Source: Desulfurococcales archaeon
Lineage (GTDB): Archaea; Thermoproteota; Thermoprotei_A; Sulfolobales; Acidilobaceae
DNA length: 57,700 bases
Reading direction: 5' to 3'
NCBI GenBank assembly: GCA_015521115.1
Contig: WAOT01000035.1
Span: 1-57,700 of the forward strand
Shown here: positions 1-10,806 of the stretch, one piece after another
How positions within the stretch are numbered: position 1 is the first letter of the stretch
Layout: every line of letters starts with the position of its first letter
The notes under the pieces: model-generated
Database searches by the model: none
Told to the model about the DNA's origin: nothing
The model's input: the letters and a program-made list of their open reading frames with translations, nothing else
Translations under genes and position numbers: made by a program

Positions 1-65
1 GGATGAGGGGCGGGGCCCGGTAGGCCCCTGAGGCCTGCAAAGCCTCGGAGGCCACTGTGGCCTGG

Positions 66-88
66 GGGTGCAACCCCCGGTTGCACCC
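66..88. repeat. Perfect 10-bp inverted repeat, copy 1 of three related sites
   Basis: GGGTGCAACC and its exact reverse complement flank a CCC spacer. The repeat begins two bases after the stop codon of the minus-strand winged-helix gene. It could be a transcribed hairpin ending that message or a protein-binding operator. No T-run follows on the minus strand, so a simple intrinsic terminator is less likely. Related but imperfect sites occur at 1115-1135 and 2611-2630. Confidence 0.7.
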
Positions 89-90
89 TT

Positions 91-348
91 CTACTCCTCG
101 GTGCACTCCTCTAGTGCTCTCTTGACGCCTTCCCTTGTGAGGCCGTATGTCTTCCCTTTCCCTCCCGCCTTGTATATGAGGCCTTGGTGTTGGATCTCTT
201 TGAGGGCTTTCGCTGTTAGCCCTCTCAGTGTTGGGTGTAGTCTCCTCATGATTGCCTCCCTCGGGACTCTGCACTTCGTCGTGGGGCCGCATAGCAGGTA
301 GAGGGCGCATAGGGTTTCTCTCAGGGTTTGGGGGTCGAGTTTCGCCAT
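91..348 (-). CDS. Small winged-helix DNA-binding protein
   Basis: This encodes an 85-aa protein. The sequence reads as three helices followed by a basic wing: a region around REAIMRRLHPTLRGL, then a recognition-helix-like KALKEIQHQGLIYK, then KGKTYGLTREGVKRAL. That pattern fits winged-helix regulators of archaeal viruses and plasmids. I chose the ATG at 348 because GGGGAGAG lies just upstream; an in-frame ATG at 360 is possible. The palindromic TATA box at 380-391 lies at the right distance to drive it. The gene is divergent from the AbrB-like gene at 486. The DNA target is unknown; autoregulation through the inverted repeat at 66-88 is only an inference. Confidence 0.55.
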   Translation of the reverse strand: MAKLDPQTLRETLCALYLLCGPTTKCRVPREAIMRRLHPTLRGLTAKALKEIQHQGLIYKAGGKGKTYGLTREGVKRALEECTEE

Positions 349-379
349 GTCTCTCCCCATGTTTTTGAGTGTTTCTAGA

Positions 380-391
380 CCTTTATAAAGG
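380..391. promoter_or_regulatory. Palindromic TATA box between divergent regulators
   Basis: CCTTTATAAAGG is a perfect 12-bp palindrome resembling a strong crenarchaeal TATA box. It lies about 25-30 bp upstream of the expected minus-strand transcript start for the winged-helix gene. A second AT-rich element, AAATATATAG at about 429-438, is better placed for the plus-strand gene starting at 486. Confidence 0.5.
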
Positions 392-485
392 TTCTGGCAG
401 AATCATAGGGTTTGGTTGGTCTGACAGAAAAATATATAGTTTTCCTCCAAGCCTTATCACCGTGGTAGCGGGCGGGTGCTGTGTT

Positions 486-959
486 ATGGGTAATGAGGGA
501 AGGGTCACCCTGGTTCTCCCTGTTAGGCCTAGTAGGGTTAGGAAGAGGCTGAAGAGCGGGGTCAAAGAGTACGTGACCTACCGCATAACCATACCCCAGG
601 AGGCCGCCCAGGCGCTGGGGCTTGAGGGGGAGGCGGCCCTGATCGTAACCCTGGAGAGGCCCAGGTGGTACCACCTCTTCAACTGGGGTGACCCCGAGAT
701 AGCCGGAGAACTGTGGGAGAGGCTGACAGAGACCCAGAGGAGGAAGGTCTGCCTGAAAGGCCTAGCCCCGAGGGAGCTATGCGGGGGCAGGCAGCCCATA
801 ACAATACTAGCAGACCCCGACAGGCTCCGCGAGCTGGGCCTAGACCCCGAGAAGCCCCTAACACTCGAGGACGTGGTCGAGAGGGTAAGGGAGAGGGTTC
901 GGGAGGAGCTCAGGAGGGAGCTAGGGGCTAAGCCCACCGAGGCGCCCCCCAAGGCCTAG
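486..959 (+). CDS. AbrB/SpoVT-like swapped-hairpin regulator with long C-terminal tail
   Basis: This encodes a 157-aa protein. The N-terminal part (about residues 1-55) has the AbrB-type pattern VKEYVTYRITIPQEAAQALGL, typical of swapped-hairpin DNA-binding proteins and antitoxins. The C-terminal 100 residues are charged; the last 35 or so are a probable Arg/Glu-rich helix (VVERVRERVREELRRELG). I start at the ATG at 486 behind GGCGGGTG; the reading frame extends upstream to 369, but that part crosses the promoter and is unlikely to be translated. No toxin partner is evident beside it. A second AbrB-like gene lies at 1958-2176, so the segment carries two such regulators, as archaeal mobile elements often do. 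Confidence 0.6.
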   Translation: MGNEGRVTLVLPVRPSRVRKRLKSGVKEYVTYRITIPQEAAQALGLEGEAALIVTLERPRWYHLFNWGDPEIAGELWERLTETQRRKVCLKGLAPRELCGGRQPITILADPDRLRELGLDPEKPLTLEDVVERVRERVREELRRELGAKPTEAPPKA

Positions 960-1114
960 AGTAGGGTGGGTGGCGAGAGGGGTTGGTGCTCGACTAGCTA
1001 GGGAGAAGGTGCAGAGGGAGCAAAGGCGCGATCCCCCGCTTGCGTCTCTCCAATAAGTTTCTCCCATACCCTGCTATTGTAACACGATATTGTTGCATTG
1101 TTGTGCGTCCCCGA

Positions 1115-1135
1115 GGGTGCAACCGGGGGGTTGAC
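1115..1135. repeat. Imperfect inverted repeat, copy 2
   Basis: GGGTGCAACC, identical to the left arm of the repeat at 66-88, is followed by a GGGG spacer and a partial right arm GGTTGAC. It lies in the 200-bp gap upstream of the small-ORF cassette, a position suited to an operator. Confidence 0.55.
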
Positions 1136-1161
1136 AAAAGCATGTAACCCCGCCCGAAACA

Positions 1162-1419
1162 TTGTGTAGAGCGGTGCCACGCTTTGCCCAGGAGGAGGAA
1201 GCTCAGGGAGGTGGAGCTCCAGATATGGCTCCAGAGGCTCCCACAGTGGAAGAGGAGGGCCACCAGACAACCCTAGCAGCACTATACCACTTCCTCACCA
1301 GGCTGACACGCAAGGGAGTAGTAGAGAGCTACAAGGTATTCATGAGCAACAAGAGGGCGTGGAGGCTCAAGAAGGAGTGTAAGCTCCTCATAACTCGGGC
1401 TCTGAGGGCTCAAACATGA
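1162..1419 (+). CDS. Small possible winged-helix protein (N-terminus uncertain)
   Basis: The C-terminal 45 residues (LAALYHFLTRLTRKGVVESYKV...RAWRLKKEC) resemble a helix-turn-helix plus wing. The N-terminal 40 residues are low-complexity Glu/Ala/Gly-rich. In another plus frame, 1190-1270 encodes a basic, more protein-like stretch (RRKLREVELQIWLQRLPQW) ending in a stop, so the true N-terminus may come from that frame through a frameshift. The annotated start is TTG. The stop overlaps the next ATG as ATGA, which supports translation of the C-terminal half. The function is not recognised. Confidence 0.35.
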   Translation: MCRAVPRFAQEEEAQGGGAPDMAPEAPTVEEEGHQTTLAALYHFLTRLTRKGVVESYKVFMSNKRAWRLKKECKLLITRALRAQT

Positions 1420-1607
1420 CATGCCCTAGCATCAAGTTCCTAGCTTCAATACTGGGAATGAGCGAGCGCAAGGCCAAGCAGCTGCTAGACAAGACCTGCC
1501 CCCTTGCTCCAGACGGCCACGATAGCCCTACCCTCCCCCGGAGCTCCGGGCAGCGGCGGAGGCATTATGCTCCTGCCAAGCCATGGGCCTCGCGAAGGAT
1601 CTCCTAG
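1416..1607 (+). CDS. Small hypothetical protein with HTH-like N-terminus
   Basis: This 63-aa ORF begins in an ATGA overlap with the preceding ORF. The first 30 residues (FLASILGMSERKAKQLLDKTC) could form a helix-turn-helix. The rest is rich in Pro, Ser and Arg with no clear fold. It overlaps the next ORF by 25 bases in another frame, so the 3' half may not be a meaningful protein sequence. No family is recognised. Confidence 0.3.
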   Translation: MTCPSIKFLASILGMSERKAKQLLDKTCPLAPDGHDSPTLPRSSGQRRRHYAPAKPWASRRIS

Positions 1608-1765
1608 AGAAGGCGGCAGACCTCCTCCAAGCCATAGCCCGAGGAGGAGGGAAAGGGAAGAGAACTAAGAAGAAGACCAGACCCAGGAAGAAGGCTAAAA
1701 CAAAGCACAAAGCCTCCCAGAGGTCAGGCAAGAGGAGGAAGAAGGCGGGGGCAAAGAAGAGGTGA
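1583..1765 (+). CDS. Very basic Lys/Arg-rich small protein
   Basis: This 60-aa protein has a short amphipathic helix (residues 1-20, GLAKDLLEKAADLLQAIA) followed by a tail in which 22 of the last 37 residues are Lys or Arg. Such tails bind nucleic acid without sequence specificity and are seen in small archaeal viral DNA-packaging proteins and nucleoid proteins. It lies seven bases before the membrane-protein ORF in an apparent overlapping operon. The role is inferred from composition alone; no family assignment is possible. Confidence 0.45.
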   Translation: MGLAKDLLEKAADLLQAIARGGGKGKRTKKKTRPRKKAKTKHKASQRSGKRRKKAGAKKR

Positions 1766-1771
1766 TAGACA

Positions 1772-1975
1772 GTGGAGCCCTGGCAGGCCTGGGCGATCCT
1801 AGCGGTGCTCACAGCAATGTACGCCAAGGCCCGCATCCTAGTCCACGATGCGGCGAGAGCCTACGGAGCATACCGGGCAAATGACGAGGAGGAATACTAC
1901 CACTACACGGCCGCCGCCATGGTGGACGCGTTCTTCATACTCCTCCTACTCATCCTCCTACTCAAGATTATCTAG
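1772..1975 (+). CDS. Small two-TM membrane protein
   Basis: This 67-aa protein starts at GTG seven bases after the preceding stop. It has an N-terminal hydrophobic segment (WQAWAILAVLTAMYA), a charged middle (YRANDEEEYYHY), and a strongly hydrophobic C-terminus (AFFILLLLILLLKII). Small membrane proteins next to a basic protein are common in archaeal spindle-shaped virus and plasmid modules. The last 18 bases overlap the convergent AbrB-like gene. No family is recognised. Confidence 0.45.
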   Translation: MEPWQAWAILAVLTAMYAKARILVHDAARAYGAYRANDEEEYYHYTAAAMVDAFFILLLLILLLKII

Positions 1976-2176
1976 AGCCTTAGCCTTTCCTACCCTTATC
2001 TCCCCCTTCTCGGTGTCTAACACCACTTCTAGCCTGTCCCCCTTACTCCAGCCAAGGGCCTCCACATAGTCCTTTGGGAGGGTTATCACGTAGATGAACG
2101 TGGTTCCCTTCTTGGCCGGCTGAGTCCTCAGCTTCACCTCCCTCCGGAGCTCCACCCTAGACCACCCCGAGGACAA
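1958..2176 (-). CDS. AbrB/SpoVT-type DNA-binding protein
   Basis: This small protein of up to 72 aa is almost entirely an AbrB swapped-hairpin domain: KGTTFIYVITLPKDYVEALGWSKGDRLEVVLDTEKGEIRV. TLPKDYVEALGW-KGD-LEV is the family's usual core. The frame starts at TTG 2176; GTG at 2155, inside the frame, is an alternative start. It converges on and overlaps the membrane-protein ORF. It lies 27 bases from the box C/D RNA, which is on the opposite strand. It is probably a transcription regulator or an antitoxin-type protein; no toxin gene adjoins it. Confidence 0.7.
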   Translation of the reverse strand: MSSGWSRVELRREVKLRTQPAKKGTTFIYVITLPKDYVEALGWSKGDRLEVVLDTEKGEIRVGKAKALDNLE

Positions 2177-2203
2177 GTCTAATAGACCAGACTAGTAGAC
2201 CAT

Positions 2204-2273
2204 GGGCGGCGGGGATGATGAACACCGCACGAGCTGACACCTGATGAGTGCCTGACGCGCTGACCCGCCGCCC
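2204..2273 (+). ncRNA. Box C/D guide sRNA
   Basis: All parts of an archaeal C/D sRNA are visible. The terminal stem is ten consecutive pairs (GGGCGGCGGG at 2204-2213 with CCCGCCGCCC at 2264-2273). Box C is ATGATGA (2215-2221), box D' CTGA (2234-2237), box C' CTGATGA (2241-2247, first base off consensus) and box D CTGA (2260-2263). Both guides are 12 nt: ACACCGCACGAG and GTGCCTGACGCG. By the D+5 rule, each would direct 2'-O-methylation of the target U opposite A2229 or A2255. The targets are not identified here. The RNA would assemble with L7Ae, Nop5 and fibrillarin. Its position inside a putative mobile segment is unusual. Confidence 0.85.
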
Positions 2274-2726
2274 CAATCCTACCAATAAGAAAACCAAACA
2301 TAATAAACACATACACCAGCCACTGCCAGCCCCCTCCGCCCCGGAGCTCCTAGAGACTCCAGGAGCTCCACAGGGCGAAGCCCCCGTTAGGAGCTCCAGT
2401 TTAGCCATCTTTAGCCGTTCTAAGTAAGTACAAGAAAGCGTTGATGTAATTGTTAGTTGTGCCGAGTTAAAGTGTTCTTGTATGATGTTTTAACTAGTTT
2501 TACCTGAAAGAGCTCCAGGCTGCATGGGTCTGGGGTTGCCTCAGCGTGGAGCCCTAGGGTAGGCTGGCCAGGTATATGTGTGTATGGTGTCCCTGGTGGG
2601 TGTCGACGGATTCAACCGGGAGGTTGCACTCTCCCAGCCACTATACTCTAATATTATTCATTATTTTTAATATATAAATATATGGGAAATCGATTCATAC
2701 CATAATCAGAGTAAAGAATGAAGGAG
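2274..2726. other. Gene-free region with GGAGCTCC repeats and an AT-rich block
   Basis: I see no convincing gene here. Three exact GGAGCTCC palindromes lie within 55 bp at 2343-2350, 2362-2369 and 2390-2397. Further copies occur at 1213, 1540 (inside the 14-bp palindrome CCCGGAGCTCCGGG) and 2146. A third copy of the GGTTGCA-type inverted repeat lies at 2611-2630. The stretch from about 2640 to 2700 is very AT-rich (ATTATTTTTAATATATAAAT), suitable for a promoter, a DNA-unwinding element or a recombination boundary. Confidence 0.5.
2611..2630. repeat. Imperfect inverted repeat, copy 3
   Basis: TTCAACC, spacer GGGA, then GGTTGCACT. The right arm matches the right arm of copy 1 at 66-88; the left arm is degraded. 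Copy 2 at 1115-1135 instead keeps the left arm intact, so the three sites look like variants of one binding motif, TGCAACC-N3/4-GGTTGCA. Confidence 0.5.
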
Positions 2727-2918
2727 TTATGCTAGATGAAGATAGGCTAGATCACCTTTTATTTCAGCGATTGCGTATCCCTCTTGGGGTTTTGCTTTTG
2801 CAGGCACCCTATACCTTGTTCCGTACTGGGTTTTCCAAGCCTCTCTAGACCCCTCTCCGACTCTATACACAACTAGACCCGGCCTCACCTCTAGGATCTC
2901 ATAGTCGTTCTTTGGCAT
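2727..2918 (-). CDS. Small hypothetical protein
   Basis: This 63-aa protein is probably a compact beta-rich fold: alternating hydrophobic strands (YEILEVRPGLVVYRVGEG, GYAIAEIKGDLAYLHL) flank a basic middle. The ATG is preceded by CCGGAG. It is the last ORF before the tRNA-Gly gene and is followed by the AT-rich block. Its composition is coherent and no better overlapping ORF exists. No family is recognised. Confidence 0.45.
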   Translation of the reverse strand: MPKNDYEILEVRPGLVVYRVGEGSREAWKTQYGTRYRVPAKAKPQEGYAIAEIKGDLAYLHLA

Positions 2919-3060
2919 CTCCGGGCCGAAGGCTACATAGTAGCCGTCATTATGACTTCTGTTAGGCTCATCTTTCTCTCCTGTTCTTCTACAGGGGTGT
3001 GGATGGATTTTTGTGTAGCAGCCACTTTCGGGTTCCTCCGGGTATTACTTTTATATGGTG

Positions 3061-3139
3061 TGGTGCGGCCGCCGGGATTTGAACCCGGGATCGCCGGCTT
3101 GGAAGGCCGGCGTCCTAGTCCAGGCTAGACGACGGCCGC
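3061..3139 (-). tRNA. tRNA-Gly (anticodon UCC), CCA encoded
   Basis: The acceptor stem is GCGGCCG with CGGCCGC, followed by discriminator A (complement of 3064) and an encoded CCA (complement of 3061-3063). The T arm is CCGGG-TTCAAAT-CCCGG. The anticodon stem CCGGC/GCCGG encloses the loop CTTCCAA, giving anticodon UCC. No intron is present. A TATA box (GTTTATAAT on the plus strand, about 3171-3179) lies about 35 bp upstream on the minus strand. The 3' end faces the accessory segment at 1-3060, the usual geometry for an integrase attachment site. Confidence 0.95.
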
Positions 3140-3281
3140 CTCCAGTGAGGATATGGATACCTGTTCTCGGGTTTATAATGGTTTTCAACCTAGGATGTGG
3201 GGGACTGTTGCCTGGGTGAAGGGGAAAAAGGCCCGTTACCGGCCAACCATTTACTTGCTCACTTGCCTCTTTTCACAGGGT

Positions 3282-3710
3282 TTAGGTCATACTTGCTGTT
3301 CCCCTGACAGTACCTGCGCTGGTGTCGACTATGAAGTCGTAAGTGTCTTTTGCACCACACTGAGCGTTGTTAAATGTTACTACAACTTTCACCTTCTCCT
3401 TACCCGGTATGGTTGTGGGGTCTATGTTTGTAGCTGAGACTAGGGAGTCGGTGTCGTCCTTTATCCTGACATTATCGATTGTAACCGTCTTACTAGAGGG
3501 GTTGTCAATATTGAACTCCAGCGTGCAGGTTCCGTTCTTGATGTAGACGAATGCGCTATCGCTTTCAATAACGGGCTTCTTCATTCCTCCGACAGCGCCC
3601 ATCATGTAGCCTATTACGATGATCGCGATTGCTATCCCTGCTACTGCGAGGATTAGGCTCACAATTGGGGTGCCGATCTCTCCTTTCCTAGCCCTAACTC
3701 TCGACCTCAT
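3282..3710 (-). CDS. Type IV pilin-like secreted protein
   Basis: This encodes a 142-aa protein. It starts with a basic, class III signal peptide (RSRVRARKGEIG) followed directly by a long hydrophobic helix (TPIVSLILAVAGIAIAIIVIGYMMG), the hallmark of archaeal pilins and archaellins processed by a PibD/FlaK-type peptidase. The remainder is a beta-strand-rich domain (residues about 55-142) with two cysteines (in GTCTLEF and NAQCGAK) that could form a disulfide. The ATG follows an AGGT ribosome site. It lies 106 bp after the secretion ATPase gene on the same strand, with its own TATA-like element (TTTTATTTAT, about 3755-3765, minus strand), consistent with higher expression of a structural subunit. 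Confidence 0.75.
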   Translation of the reverse strand: MRSRVRARKGEIGTPIVSLILAVAGIAIAIIVIGYMMGAVGGMKKPVIESDSAFVYIKNGTCTLEFNIDNPSSKTVTIDNVRIKDDTDSLVSATNIDPTTIPGKEKVKVVVTFNNAQCGAKDTYDFIVDTSAGTVRGTASMT

Positions 3711-5929: not shown

Positions 5930-8900
5930 ATGGCGAAGTGTCGGGTTAGAAGGGTGTCCGTCATGGAGGCCCGGGAGGTGGAACTATCATACAGGAAGGC
6001 ACTTCTAGCCGTAATAATGGCCCTCCTAGTAGTTGGCCCAATGCTCGTCTATCCCGCCAAAGCCTTATCCCAGCCAGTACAAGAGGAGAACTCCATCCTT
6101 GAACTAAATGCTAAAGTTACACGCTCAGTAGCCAGAAACCTCACAACAGAGCACCCCTACTTATTAACGTTAGCTAAAATGGCTAGAGCCGCAGAGTCCC
6201 TCGAGAACGGGGATAACAAACAGGTCAAAGCTGAGGACGTGACCTACAACCTAAGCAAGGTTAGAATACCTGCAGTAGTTCTCAGCTCCCTGGACGACCA
6301 GGACGCAGTCATAGAGTACGCTTACAGGTATATCCTCCTAAAGAACACGTTCAATTTCAACGACCTCAACATGTACTATAGAATCACATGGGACGACAAC
6401 TCACCTGTAATGTATAACCCAGCTAGTCCCACGGACTCAGTATTTGGCGGGTACTTCACACACAGAGTGCACTTCCACATCGATCTCAGCCAGCCCATCG
6501 TTGACGCGTCACCCGGGGCCGGGAACACGCAGGAGCTCGTAGAACTATTCCAGCAGTACACCCACTATAATGTCTACTTCATGGAGTATCTAAGTAGCGG
6601 CTCGCTCATGAGCGTGAACTTTAAGAAGTTATCTGATAACTCAGAGATCGACGTGAAGGACTACAGCCTATACTACGGAGTAGTAGTCCAGATGTACTAT
6701 GACCCCCAGCTCTTACAGGCACTCAGGTCAATGCAGCCAGAAAATGGAACCTACATCTACTACTCCATAGCTAAAGTTAGCTTCACAGTAACACTACAGC
6801 CCAGCACAACACAGGTTCTAGCCGAGGGCAGCACCTGGCAGCTCTCCGAGCAGACCTACGACATATCACCTTACGTGGTTGCCGCACTAAACATGATAGC
6901 CCAGCAGATCCAGTCAAGCGATATGCCGGCCCCCGTTAAGAACGCCTTCCTCCAGAAACTAACCCAGTGGGCGCAGCAGTCTTACACGTTGAAGACGAAA
7001 CACAACATCGTTAACATCACGATCTCATGGGTGTTAACAGACCAGTACGACGTATACGAGAACAGCTCTTACGTGGGTGGCGGAAACGAGATAGTCCTAG
7101 CCGACAGTTTCACACCCTCATTCTCGGTCAACAGGACACAGGAGCTCATAGACCAGGCCCTCGGCAGGGCGAACGGAACCCTATCATCATATTACCCTGG
7201 AGGGATAAAGGCATTCCTCTACCAGGAGGAGGGCCAGCCGTACCCGATACTCCTCTACGACTCAGAGACTAACACCACTAGCCAGATGACAGCGGGAGTA
7301 CCAAGCGATAAGGTTAGAGTGGATGAGAGGGCACTCCTATTCACAACCTACCCGCTAGAAGCTAATACCCTAGCCGGTAAAACACCTATGACCAAGATCG
7401 ACATTGAAACGAAGACCGACACCACAAGCGACTACACAATATCGCCTAGCAGTCTGACAGCAGCATTCAGCTACACAGAAACCGCAACCGAGGGTAACAC
7501 TACCTACACAATACACCACACCTACACGCTCTACGTTGACATCTCAGCCACAGTGAAGGAGTTCGAGATCAGCGTGGAGGCCACACCCTATGACATCTAC
7601 ATTGACATAGGCGTAGAGCCCCACATCAAAGCTAATGAGACTGGAGGGCTACAGGAGATCAGCAAAGGCCACATCTACCCGGCACTAGCACCACTAGGGG
7701 GCACTGGGATATTTGACCTCATAAAGGGTGGAGCAGGGCAGGTCGGCATTAGCGAGATAGCAAACGCCCTCCAGGTGATCGACAGTATCGTGAACAACAC
7801 GTTCTTCCAGCTAGTCTTCCCGACATACTTTCCAACACCTCTAATACATGACAGCCTCAAGATCGTGGCTCCAGGAGAATATGTCGGAGTATACTACATG
7901 CCGGGCAAGTTCAAGATAGACGTGCCCAAGATCGGAAAGCCCCTATTCGCAATAATGTATGAGAAGGTGAGAGTTCAGCTAAAGAACACAAGAGGAAACC
8001 CCAACGCAGACGACCCGAGCGTAGGCCTCATGTACTACAGTAACGGTGAGATACAGAGGGACGGTAGAGACTACTTCAACATGTACAGCCTAGGCTTCGC
8101 AGTTGGAGAAGTAGACAACAAGGTCATAGGCCCCAGGTTCTACATGGCCCCATCAAGCATAGGAGAGACAAACCTCCCAGCACTATTCGAGTCAATACTA
8201 AACAGCGGCCTCTTCCAGTTCCTCCAGGGCGACAACTTCATAACAGACCTACTCGACGACATACTACCAGGAGAGATCTTCGAGGCTGCAAGAGAGATCA
8301 TAGGTCAGATGAGGGACAACGGCCTCTACCCACAGATAGGAGTGTACTTCGGCGGGTCAGGCAGCGTATGGCCTTACTTCCTAGTATCACCTAAGACCAC
8401 TTACAGGTTCGTAACCAGCAGGCCCGGGGACTACCTCCTAAGTGCTAACGCAGACTTCTACATGCTACACGTGAGGATCTTCAAGATACCAATCCTCGGA
8501 ATACCCATACCCATACCGATATTCGAGAGCCACCATGAGAGCGCCTCAACGACCCTGAAGGTCAGGCAGATTAAGGCCCTACCACTACTGATAAACTATG
8601 AGATCAAGCCTCCAGAGAACCTCAACCTGTTCACAGCCTTAAGAGCGGGAGACCCGTTCAGCAGCGACAGCTATGTCGGCATCTACAGCGTTCCCGTATG
8701 GGTAGACCTCGACGGATACACACCCATAGCGCCAGTCATACTGAGAGGACAGTACGGCTACGGCCCGCAGGCCACAAGCCTAACAATAGCAGCAGTGACC
8801 CCAAGCCGCACGGTAATCGCTGCTACAGACGTCTACTTCTTCGGAGTCCCGCTATCCTTCGTAAAGATACCGCTAAGCGAGCTCCAGAGGATCACGCCAG

Positions 8901-10159
8901 GCGAGGAGTCGGCCCTACTACTTGTACCGGCCTGGAAGCATGGTAAGACTGTCTCAACCGTACAGACGAGCGGCAGCCCGACAGTCCTTAGGATAGCGAG
9001 GGTCAAGAGCTTCCCACTATTCTTCTATGACGGTAAGCTCATAACATACACGGGAGTATACGACCCAGACAACAAGATCCACGAGTATGCAAGAATGGCT
9101 GAACAGAAGATAGACGAGATAGCCGGAATGATCCAGAGCAACCTCTCAATGGTGAACAACACGCTCAACAATGTCGTAGGGCAGATAGGCGAGATCCAGG
9201 GCCTGCTAGAGGCTATAAACAACGAGACACTAAGCCTAGACCAGATTCTACAGCAGATAAGCGCTGAGATCGTAGACCAGATAATGAACGCTATGGGAGG
9301 CCTCATAGAGCAGCTCGTACAACAGTTCATAGCCAACGCAGTGGCGGCCGTTGTAGGAGCGGTTGTACCCGACCCGACAGGCTTCATAAGCGGCTACATA
9401 CAGGATCTGATAAGCCAGCTCATAAACAACGCCCTCGGACAGCTCCTACCCGGTAATGGAGAGGGAGGAGAGATCAACATAACCGACCTAATAACCAGGT
9501 ACGGCCTACAAGTGGCAACATTCCTAGCTCTAAAAGCCGCTTACAACTTGATAGGCTATGAGGGCCTAATGAACATACTGAACGAGGCCAAGAGCATTGC
9601 CCTCAAAGGTATTGAGATGATAACCAGGATCAACGCGACCATAAACTACATCCTAAAGATCGTCAACAACACTGTAGAAATGACAAAGTACAAGCCCATG
9701 GTTCTATCAGCCCTATACACTTACAACCTCGCGGGCCAGCAGATACCGAATGAGGGCATACTAGCAGGCCTCGCTGGGGCGAGCGGGGAGAACATAATAC
9801 TCCCAATTGACGCCATCGAGGCAGACCTCGAGCGGGGAGGAATGCTCTACACAACACCATACAGTACACTAACATTCATACTCCAGATCATAACTGGAGC
9901 CGAGACCGGAGAGTACCCCAACATAGCAGTGAGCATCCCAGACGCACTGGCATACGTCGCGGCATGGGTGAACTTCGTTGCATCCCTGCTCGGAGACAAT
10001 GGACAGAGCCTGCAGCAGCTCTCCACAACACTCCTACAGTGGAGCGGTAACGTCGCTAAATACATAGGACTAGCAGAGCAGTGGGTCGAGATACCTGGCG
10101 TTGACACCCACACAATACTGCTACCAACAGTCACGCTAATACCGCCGTCCAAGATATAA
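5930..10159 (+). CDS. Giant secreted surface-layer-like glycoprotein
   Basis: This encodes up to 1409 aa. An N-terminal signal peptide (about residues 23-47, KALLAVIMALLVVGPMLVYPAKA) leads into a very long Asn/Thr/Tyr/Gln-rich extracellular region with many N-glycosylation sequons (NLT, NGT, NIT, NTT, NAT and others). A likely coiled-coil lies at about 1050-1130, followed by an Ala/Val-rich stretch near 1135-1155. No C-terminal membrane anchor is present. Size and architecture resemble SlaA-type S-layer proteins, which need a separate anchor; homology was not tested. An ATG at 5963 behind AGGGTG is an alternative start. AT-rich promoter sequence (TTTTAATATATGG near 5819) lies upstream. It is divergent from the pilus ATPase. 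Confidence 0.65.
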   Translation: MAKCRVRRVSVMEAREVELSYRKALLAVIMALLVVGPMLVYPAKALSQPVQEENSILELNAKVTRSVARNLTTEHPYLLTLAKMARAAESLENGDNKQVKAEDVTYNLSKVRIPAVVLSSLDDQDAVIEYAYRYILLKNTFNFNDLNMYYRITWDDNSPVMYNPASPTDSVFGGYFTHRVHFHIDLSQPIVDASPGAGNTQELVELFQQYTHYNVYFMEYLSSGSLMSVNFKKLSDNSEIDVKDYSLYYGVVVQMYYDPQLLQALRSMQPENGTYIYYSIAKVSFTVTLQPSTTQVLAEGSTWQLSEQTYDISPYVVAALNMIAQQIQSSDMPAPVKNAFLQKLTQWAQQSYTLKTKHNIVNITISWVLTDQYDVYENSSYVGGGNEIVLADSFTPSFSVNRTQELIDQALGRANGTLSSYYPGGIKAFLYQEEGQPYPILLYDSETNTTSQMTAGVPSDKVRVDERALLFTTYPLEANTLAGKTPMTKIDIETKTDTTSDYTISPSSLTAAFSYTETATEGNTTYTIHHTYTLYVDISATVKEFEISVEATPYDIYIDIGVEPHIKANETGGLQEISKGHIYPALAPLGGTGIFDLIKGGAGQVGISEIANALQVIDSIVNNTFFQLVFPTYFPTPLIHDSLKIVAPGEYVGVYYMPGKFKIDVPKIGKPLFAIMYEKVRVQLKNTRGNPNADDPSVGLMYYSNGEIQRDGRDYFNMYSLGFAVGEVDNKVIGPRFYMAPSSIGETNLPALFESILNSGLFQFLQGDNFITDLLDDILPGEIFEAAREIIGQMRDNGLYPQIGVYFGGSGSVWPYFLVSPKTTYRFVTSRPGDYLLSANADFYMLHVRIFKIPILGIPIPIPIFESHHESASTTLKVRQIKALPLLINYEIKPPENLNLFTALRAGDPFSSDSYVGIYSVPVWVDLDGYTPIAPVILRGQYGYGPQATSLTIAAVTPSRTVIAATDVYFFGVPLSFVKIPLSELQRITPGEESALLLVPAWKHGKTVSTVQTSGSPTVLRIARVKSFPLFFYDGKLITYTGVYDPDNKIHEYARMAEQKIDEIAGMIQSNLSMVNNTLNNVVGQIGEIQGLLEAINNETLSLDQILQQISAEIVDQIMNAMGGLIEQLVQQFIANAVAAVVGAVVPDPTGFISGYIQDLISQLINNALGQLLPGNGEGGEINITDLITRYGLQVATFLALKAAYNLIGYEGLMNILNEAKSIALKGIEMITRINATINYILKIVNNTVEMTKYKPMVLSALYTYNLAGQQIPNEGILAGLAGASGENIILPIDAIEADLERGGMLYTTPYSTLTFILQIITGAETGEYPNIAVSIPDALAYVAAWVNFVASLLGDNGQSLQQLSTTLLQWSGNVAKYIGLAEQWVEIPGVDTHTILLPTVTLIPPSKI

Positions 10160-10186
10160 ACATCTTTTTCCTTATATAAAAATAAT
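10160..10186 (+). terminator. T-rich transcription terminator after the surface protein
   Basis: CTTTTTCC directly follows the TAA of the giant surface-protein gene and is followed by AT-rich sequence. Archaeal RNA polymerase stops on such T-runs without a required hairpin. The 29-bp gap separates it from the convergent hydrolase gene. Confidence 0.5.
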
Positions 10187-10188
10187 TA

Positions 10189-10806
10189 TTAATCAACTGT
10201 TTTTTCCGAGGAGATCATCCTAACAATCTGTTTGAAGTCCTCAATGAAATCCTCTGGCCTATCGAGGTACATGGCATGCCCCGCACCCTTATACTCCCGA
10301 TACTCTCCCCCAAGCCTCTCAGCTAGGTCACGTAGAACCTTACGCGGCACGAAGTCCCTTTCACCCCTCAGTATAACCACGGGATAGCCGGGCCTCCTCA
10401 GCGGCCCCCAGAAGTCGTCGTCATAGCTTATGGCGGGGCTAGCAAGCAGCAGACCACTGACCGGGTACCTTGCCGCATAGTATAGGGCTACTCTACCCCC
10501 TAGACTTGCTCCTACTATGAGAGGAGCGTTTCCGCCGAGGAACCTTTCAACAACCCTTCGGGCGGCGGTGACGTTAAGGTCGATGCTTCTCGAGTGTTTA
10601 GTGCACTCAGTCCTCTTCCCATACGGCATGTCAGGCGCTGCATACGGGAGAAGTAGCTCCTCGGCTACATCTAATACTCCAACCTCTCTCCACGTTGCTC
10701 CCGTAAAGCTGTACCCGTGGAGGAAGAGCACACCTGGCCCCCTAGTTCCAGCCTCATAGATTACCCTGCATTCGACCCCACCCACTCCATAAAGGGATTC
10801 CTTCAC
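10189..10806 (-). CDS. Alpha/beta hydrolase
   Basis: This 205-aa protein is a compact alpha/beta hydrolase. LFLHGYSFTG supplies the oxyanion-hole His-Gly, GASLGG the nucleophile elbow (Ser, about residue 100), and RGERDFVP the acid Asp. KGAGHAMYLDRPE carries the catalytic His. Family members are esterases, lipases or acyl hydrolases; the substrate cannot be told from sequence. It is a single gene, convergent with the surface-protein gene. Confidence 0.85.
   Translation of the reverse strand: MKESLYGVGGVECRVIYEAGTRGPGVLFLHGYSFTGATWREVGVLDVAEELLLPYAAPDMPYGKRTECTKHSRSIDLNVTAARRVVERFLGGNAPLIVGASLGGRVALYYAARYPVSGLLLASPAISYDDDFWGPLRRPGYPVVILRGERDFVPRKVLRDLAERLGGEYREYKGAGHAMYLDRPEDFIEDFKQIVRMISSEKTVD

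Follow-up and report, generated by a model that had tools for sequence, protein, structure and literature searches.

A box C/D sRNA gene on a probable integrated element at tRNA-Gly(UCC) and its family on archaeal conjugative elements

The 70-nt gene at 2204-2273 (+ strand) of the window (the whole 57.7-kb stretch of DNA that was analysed) was confirmed, on sequence evidence, to encode a real archaeal box C/D sRNA. At a probability of about two in three, this sRNA is the cargo of a ~3.3-kb element integrated at the 3' end of tRNA-Gly(UCC) and belongs to a mobile C/D family of integrated elements and free conjugative plasmids, the RNP of which would act on host translation RNAs, with guide targets switched under selection. 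C/D sRNAs are of a known kind, and their mobility on conjugative elements with hypervariable guides would be the new part: according to a 2021 review, mobile features of these archaeal genes "remain to be discovered", and such a family was not found in the open literature searched, although older subscription papers on Sulfolobus plasmids may mention it in passing.

Box C/D sRNA at 2204-2273

The sRNA displayed the 5'-to-3' structure GGGCGGCGGG–G–AUGAUGA–ACACCGCACGAG–CUGA–CACC–UGAUGA–GUGCCUGACGCG–CUGA–CCCGCCGCCC, with all parts on the + strand: 5' arm of the terminal stem (2204-2213), box C (2215-2221), 12-nt D' guide or guide 1 (2222-2233), box D' (2234-2237), box C' (2242-2247), 12-nt D guide or guide 2 (2248-2259), box D (2260-2263), and 3' arm of the terminal stem (2264-2273), the two arms pairing over 10 bp. 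The terminal stem (k-turn) directly adjoined boxes C and D, and an internal C'/D' pair and two ~12-nt guides were present. Boxes, guides, and stem were read in the sequence, and the stem was further supported by covariation across 18 family members and by the fold centroid.

The leave-own-out covariance model R2, which was made from other family members only with the window copy excluded, recovered the sRNA at 82.4 bits (E 8e-14) as its sole match in 57.7 kb. Terminal-stem pairs were kept in 136 of 144 cases across the 18 members, whereas re-dealing the 3' arms among members left 99.8 pairs on average and never more than 115, and the stem sequence itself varied freely; the fold z of the sRNA was -3.07. 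Under permissive settings, two Rfam families matched below their gathering scores: snoPyro_CD (RF00095; 39 bits, E 1.5e-6 in 701 bases; gathering score 45) and sR3 (28.9 bits, same span and strand). Strong full-length homologues occurred in several other genera, among them two near-full-length ones (87-88% identity, blastn) in two genera, and the D' guide ACACCGCACGAG was identical in copy L119 of genome G039. The complete guide RNA described in the initial annotation was thereby borne out in every part. The GCAC/GUGC complementarity between the two guides, which had also been pointed out there, was present but was given no weight, since it covered only 4 nt and was not common to the family.

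Element at tRNA-Gly(UCC) and its conjugative kinship

The sRNA was located between an AbrB/MazE-fold DNA-binding protein gene, which was divergent from it (1958-2176, - strand; PF04014, 33.2 bits, above cut-off), and the integration target tRNA-Gly(UCC) (3061-3139, - strand; ARAGORN and Rfam). The window began at base 1 of contig C35. In the same assembly, the 3' half of the tRNA recurred over 50 bp at the end of contig C19 (20740-20789), with 49 bp identical to the right att repeat of the window (3061-3110, - strand); the 31 bp after this copy were similar to the left end of an element in G037. This G037 element, from the same genus, was complete (~3.7 kb), was integrated in tRNA-Gly(CCC), and ended on its far side in part of a second tRNA copy. 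The window element and the G037 element were colinear over 50-118, 831-978, 1033-1370, and 2958-3142 of the window (76-88% identity), including the right end at 2958-3060 (88% conserved); the sRNA was not found in the G037 element. From the left-end match on C19 and the colinear G037 element, an element of ~3.3 kb most likely spans the two contigs, with its left end on C19 and its right part at window 1-3110, the C19-C35 join being inferred; this join would place direct repeats of the tRNA 3' end (49/50 bp) at both element ends. No integrase was seen in window 1-3060 or in the complete G037 relative, and the element is probably non-autonomous.

G035, of the same genus, kept the gene order tRNA-Gly(UCC)–pilin–ATPase (L153/L002) but had a different gene directly at the tRNA 3' end; neither element nor sRNA was present at this locus, which represented an empty site. 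The same sRNA in relatives lacking the surrounding ORFs, which the initial annotation had named as a refuting outcome, was sought at the same tRNA locus and not found, and the idea withstood this check. A guide RNA carried as the property of a mobile element was well supported by att repeats, a colinear element, an empty site, a patchy multicopy distribution, and plasmid members (see below).

Two further features were observed around these loci: (i) tRNA-Gly(UCC) of G035 (L153 10003-10119/L002 7950-8066) contained a ~30-nt insert near the anticodon, probably an intron, that was absent from the window copy, and (ii) on C19 (L174), the region next to the left att (7338-10643, on its outer side) resembled a defence island, its ORFs reading as a putative restriction enzyme, an EndoIII/MutY-like glycosylase, and a DNA cytosine methyltransferase, with identities taken from ORF sequences only.

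The neighbouring ORFs had initially been taken as viral-like, which did not hold: no strong viral-family match was obtained in PHROGs for the ORFs near the sRNA, and these ORFs matched genes of integrated conjugative elements, so they were renamed conjugative-element-like. A viral origin was rejected: IMG/VR and phage records contained no family members and gave no match beyond chance. The matching genes were (i) a small gene at 91-360 (- strand), common to elements L110 and L111 (~50% identity), without a Pfam match above cut-off, the product of which looked like a winged-helix protein; (ii) an AbrB-like gene at 486-959 (+ strand), common to elements L110, L111, and L175, with a weak Pfam match below cut-off; and (iii) a small winged-helix-like gene at 1162-1419 (+ strand), common to elements L111 and L175. 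A homology of 2727-2918 to the G037 gene at 9738-10097 was dismissed because the likeness was only superficial.

L111 carried a TraG/VirD4-like protein and an archaeal integrase (both above Pfam cut-offs), with a tRNA 3' end after the integrase. L111 and L108 had homologous VirB4-like ATPases, and L108 also contained a TrbC/VirB2-like pilin, which scored slightly below cut-off, and a secretion ATPase. In L108, L111, and L113, members of the sRNA family were placed between such transfer genes. The window element is of the conjugative kind, related to archaeal conjugative elements. At L175 7698-7991, the G037 element retained a fragment similar to the beginning of the L108/L113 VirB4-like gene, which suggests that the small elements are remnants of conjugative elements.

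An imperfect palindrome TGCAACC...GGTTGCA was repeated between element genes in the window (61-90, 1110-1133, and 2605-2627), and similar copies occurred in conjugative element L108 (4371, 8444, 10218, and 14106); it is perhaps a regulator or replication site.

Distribution of the sRNA family and guide turnover

The covariance model R1 detected members in 24 of the 48 family genomes (E <= 0.5), with 13 matches between E 1e-16 and 1e-7, and in 42 of the 214 order genomes (E <= 0.01). The distribution was patchy, often with several copies per genome (seven in G031 and six in G029), and many Pyrodictiaceae-like copies either had a tRNA gene close by (Gly, Asn, Glu, Val, Ser, or Ile) or came from short contigs; the labels Pyrodictiaceae-like and Sulfolobales represent our reading of the organism type. 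Two shapes were recognized: a canonical 70-nt form and a second form with a GC-rich hairpin between D' and C', the latter in L108, L111, L113, L118, L123, and L124. A copy at L125 8795-8840 (G041), near tRNA-Ile, tRNA-Gln, and tRNA-Ala genes, was a decaying remnant, with both guides preserved but box C, box D, and the stem gone.

The search with cmsearch was also applied to 11 complete conjugative plasmids, and nine of them carried a member (E 3e-8 to 0.03): pB12E5 (two), pNOB8, pSOG1, pSOG2, pARN4, pKEF9, pHVE14, pYN01, and pAH1; no reliable member was found on pARN3 or pING1. One Sulfolobales member aligned to pNOB8 with all 77 of its 77 bases matched, and it was 98.7% identical to pB12E5. 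The plasmid sRNAs carried no RNA annotation in plasmid tables, an absence of little weight since PLSDB lists no RNA genes. A TTTAAAT-type TATA box was present ~25-40 nt upstream of the plasmid sRNAs, and a DUF1286 gene was directly upstream of the sRNA in several plasmids, namely pYN01, pB12E5, and pARN4 (L214, L205, and L208).

The pNOB8 and pYN01 sRNAs agreed fully (100%) in stem, boxes, and D'-C' linker, while their two guides were only 42% and 33% identical; the guides are the fast-changing part of an otherwise fixed RNA, with scaffold and promoter constant. This fast turnover on a constant scaffold suggests that guide targets have been switched under selection. The sRNA family displays C/D gene mobility on laboratory-tractable elements (pNOB8, pKEF9, pHVE14, and pYN01) and offers a testable source of new guides for hosts; on entering a cell, plasmids appear to supply it with RNA-modification guides of their own, and the family suggests that plasmids alter host RNA modification.

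Compared to the Sulfolobus conjugative plasmids (pNOB8, pKEF9, pHVE14, pARN4, pSOG1/2, pYN01, pAH1, and pB12E5), which carried the same sRNA family with strong promoters, the window element was small and tRNA-integrated and had no transfer genes in its window part. Compared to archaeal box C/D sRNAs in general (RF00095, sR families; PMC7994747), the window family shared the boxes with their order and spacing, the pair of ~12-nt guides, and the terminal stem, but it differed in residing on mobile elements, in its long covarying GC stem, in hypervariable guides on a fixed scaffold, in the D'-C' hairpin of some members, and in the aim of several members at anticodon nucleotide 36 (see below).

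Candidate targets and alternative explanations

Guides were scored against 16S and 23S rRNA of relatives and against tRNAs of the window host, with shuffled guides as control; relatives' rRNA was used because no 16S or 23S rRNA gene was found in the window assembly. The dual-guide test on 16S and 23S required both guides of one sRNA to fall within 100 nt. For the window copy, the best 16S site of the D' guide was CUCGUGCYGUGA at position 1028 of the L039 16S (7 bp, one mismatch, 3 bp), and the best partner site of the D guide was UAAGUCAGGCAA at position 1050, 22 nt from the D' site, with 8 contiguous bp. In the G039 16S, the same two sites were the best match of each window guide, and the G039 copy is the one that shares the identical D' guide. 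This neighbouring pair of sites is the best candidate target of the window sRNA, unproven as it stands. Of the target classes that the initial annotation had proposed to check, relatives' 16S gave a suggestive dual-guide match (p 0.056), host tRNAs gave no match, and element RNA gave no excess over shuffled guides.

Several candidates were rejected: (i) the integration-site tRNA-Gly, which had no match to either window guide; (ii) targets inside elements, where match numbers were as in shuffled guides; (iii) a 10-nt stretch of 16S (L042, AUCGUGCGGUGA) that matched the D' guide, which needed a U absent from most relatives and from G039, the carrier of the identical guide; and (iv) a 16S target CGCGUCGGGCAA, which was false and vanished once minus-strand rRNA genes were correctly oriented.

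The dual-guide test was also applied to the family: 10 of 39 members reached p<0.05 on 16S (two expected) and one of 39 on 23S, with per-member p-values and recurrent sites not independent because family members share ancestry. The recurrent 16S sites were GGUGUCAGCCGC (h18 region) and CUCGUGCYGUGA paired with UAAGUCAGGCAACGAGCG.

In the tRNA test, which covered every register and in which the intron-less tRNAs of the window host stood in for those of other hosts, six guides paired strongly in one register, with D+1 opposite nucleotide 32 and D+5 at nucleotide 36 (6 observed vs 0.15 expected; <=1 in 20 shuffled sets), and all other registers were weak. The six guides aimed at Ala(UGC), Ala(CGC), Ser(GCU), Gly(UCC) (twice; these two guides possibly related to each other), and one Ser tRNA; the D guide GTCGGGTGCAAY, which matched the tRNA-Ala(UGC) anticodon loop, occurred in L108 (4526), L113 (879), and L111. 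The other guide of the L194 RNA also matched the tRNA-Gly D-arm, and the D guide of pKEF9 fitted the Thr(CGU) loop CUCGUAA by eye in the window host's tRNA. From these pairings, nucleotide 36 of particular tRNA anticodons is a likely site for a subset of the family. Known C/D sRNAs for tRNA wobble position 34 (sR50 and others; PMC7994747) likewise have a guide complementary to the anticodon loop, but the register in the window family lay two nucleotides further, with D+5 at nucleotide 36 in all six matching guides. Nucleotide 36 was not encountered as a modified position in one archaeal tRNA survey (PMC7668247).

In archaeal C/D RNPs, L7Ae binds the k-turns, followed by Nop5 and fibrillarin, and the nucleotide paired at D+5 is 2'-O-methylated (PMC4644070). 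In the mechanism that we propose, the element would transcribe the sRNA; host L7Ae, Nop5, and fibrillarin would assemble on it; and the RNP would 2'-O-methylate, or at least bind, RNAs of the host translation apparatus, placing, in a subset of the family, a methyl on nucleotide 36 of particular tRNA anticodons. The selective aim would be, for instance, to shield host tRNA or rRNA from nucleases (RNA-cutting defence, toxins) or to adjust host translation during plasmid establishment. A bolder version, which we put forward tentatively and rate as doubtful, is that conjugative plasmids carry hypervariable, reprogrammable C/D guides that borrow the host fibrillarin RNP to set 2'-O-methyls at functional points of the host translation machinery, including nucleotide 36 of chosen anticodons and sites in the 16S core; this would counter RNA-cutting immunity or tune host translation, with guides swapped between plasmids like cartridges.

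The AbrB-like gene adjoined the sRNA in four loci (window, L122, L123, and L124) and lay between two sRNAs in L108, an arrangement that would suit an sRNA expressed and L7Ae-bound without methylation, acting as a structured regulatory RNA (L7Ae/Nop5 decoy or control of the divergent AbrB-like gene); the conservation of the scaffold but not of the guides, and the imperfect pairing of the window guides with every known target tried, point the same way. We consider such a role unlikely, because guide length stayed near 12 nt, the anticodon-loop register and the 16S enrichment would be unexpected for a decoy, and no AbrB neighbour was named next to the plasmid copies.

The recurrent 16S sites among members (h18-like GGUGUCAGCCGC; CUCGUGC... 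and GCAACGAGC) would also be expected of an ordinary host rRNA guide that was flanked by chance integration, its mobility being incidental; hyperthermophilic archaea have dozens of C/D genes (PMC4644070), and the window sRNA was a single copy in its own genome. This explanation is nevertheless quite improbable: the tRNA site of the same-genus relative lacked the sRNA, copies in relatives were patchy and often beside tRNA genes or within conjugative genes, nine of 11 free plasmids had a member, and guides changed where the scaffold did not; the plasmid copies largely refute it as an explanation of the family.

An interference-like role resembling TIGR-Tas, in which the guides would target the nucleic acids of their own element or of competitors, is very improbable, for despite a few 12-nt matches between a guide of one element and the sequence of another and the Nop-domain kinship between TIGR and C/D RNPs (PMC12045711), the inter-element match count was about that of shuffled guides, the sRNAs were single genes rather than arrays, and no Tas-like gene was noticed next to the sRNA (ORFs 91-3710, Pfam matches). 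TIGR-Tas and the window sRNA resembled each other in dual-guide RNAs, C/D-like boxes, and residence on mobile DNA (PMC12045711), but the window sRNA was single, had no array or Tas protein in view, and possessed canonical C/D boxes and a terminal stem.

The mobile C/D family as favoured here presented two further observations on guide structure. A constant 7-nt D' seed RCACGAG (target CUCGUGY) followed by 5 variable nt was shared by the window, L117, L119, L109, L112, L183, L189, L195, and pNOB8; the split between seed and variable part mirrored that between anticodon loop and stem, and the seed also fitted 16S. No tRNA with loop CUCGUGY was found for this seed, and CACGAG-type D' guides were rejected as tRNA-Thr(CGU) guides, as the window host's loop has CUCGU then AA, which breaks pairing at 37-38. 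The D' guide of L118 matched the 5' side of the tRNA-Ala(UGC) anticodon stem-loop, and at L118 1-3143 the sRNA adjoined a ribbon-helix-helix gene together with PIN/VapC-type-like and HSP90-like ATPase-like genes, so that a guide aimed at tRNA may here sit in a defence or toxin setting.
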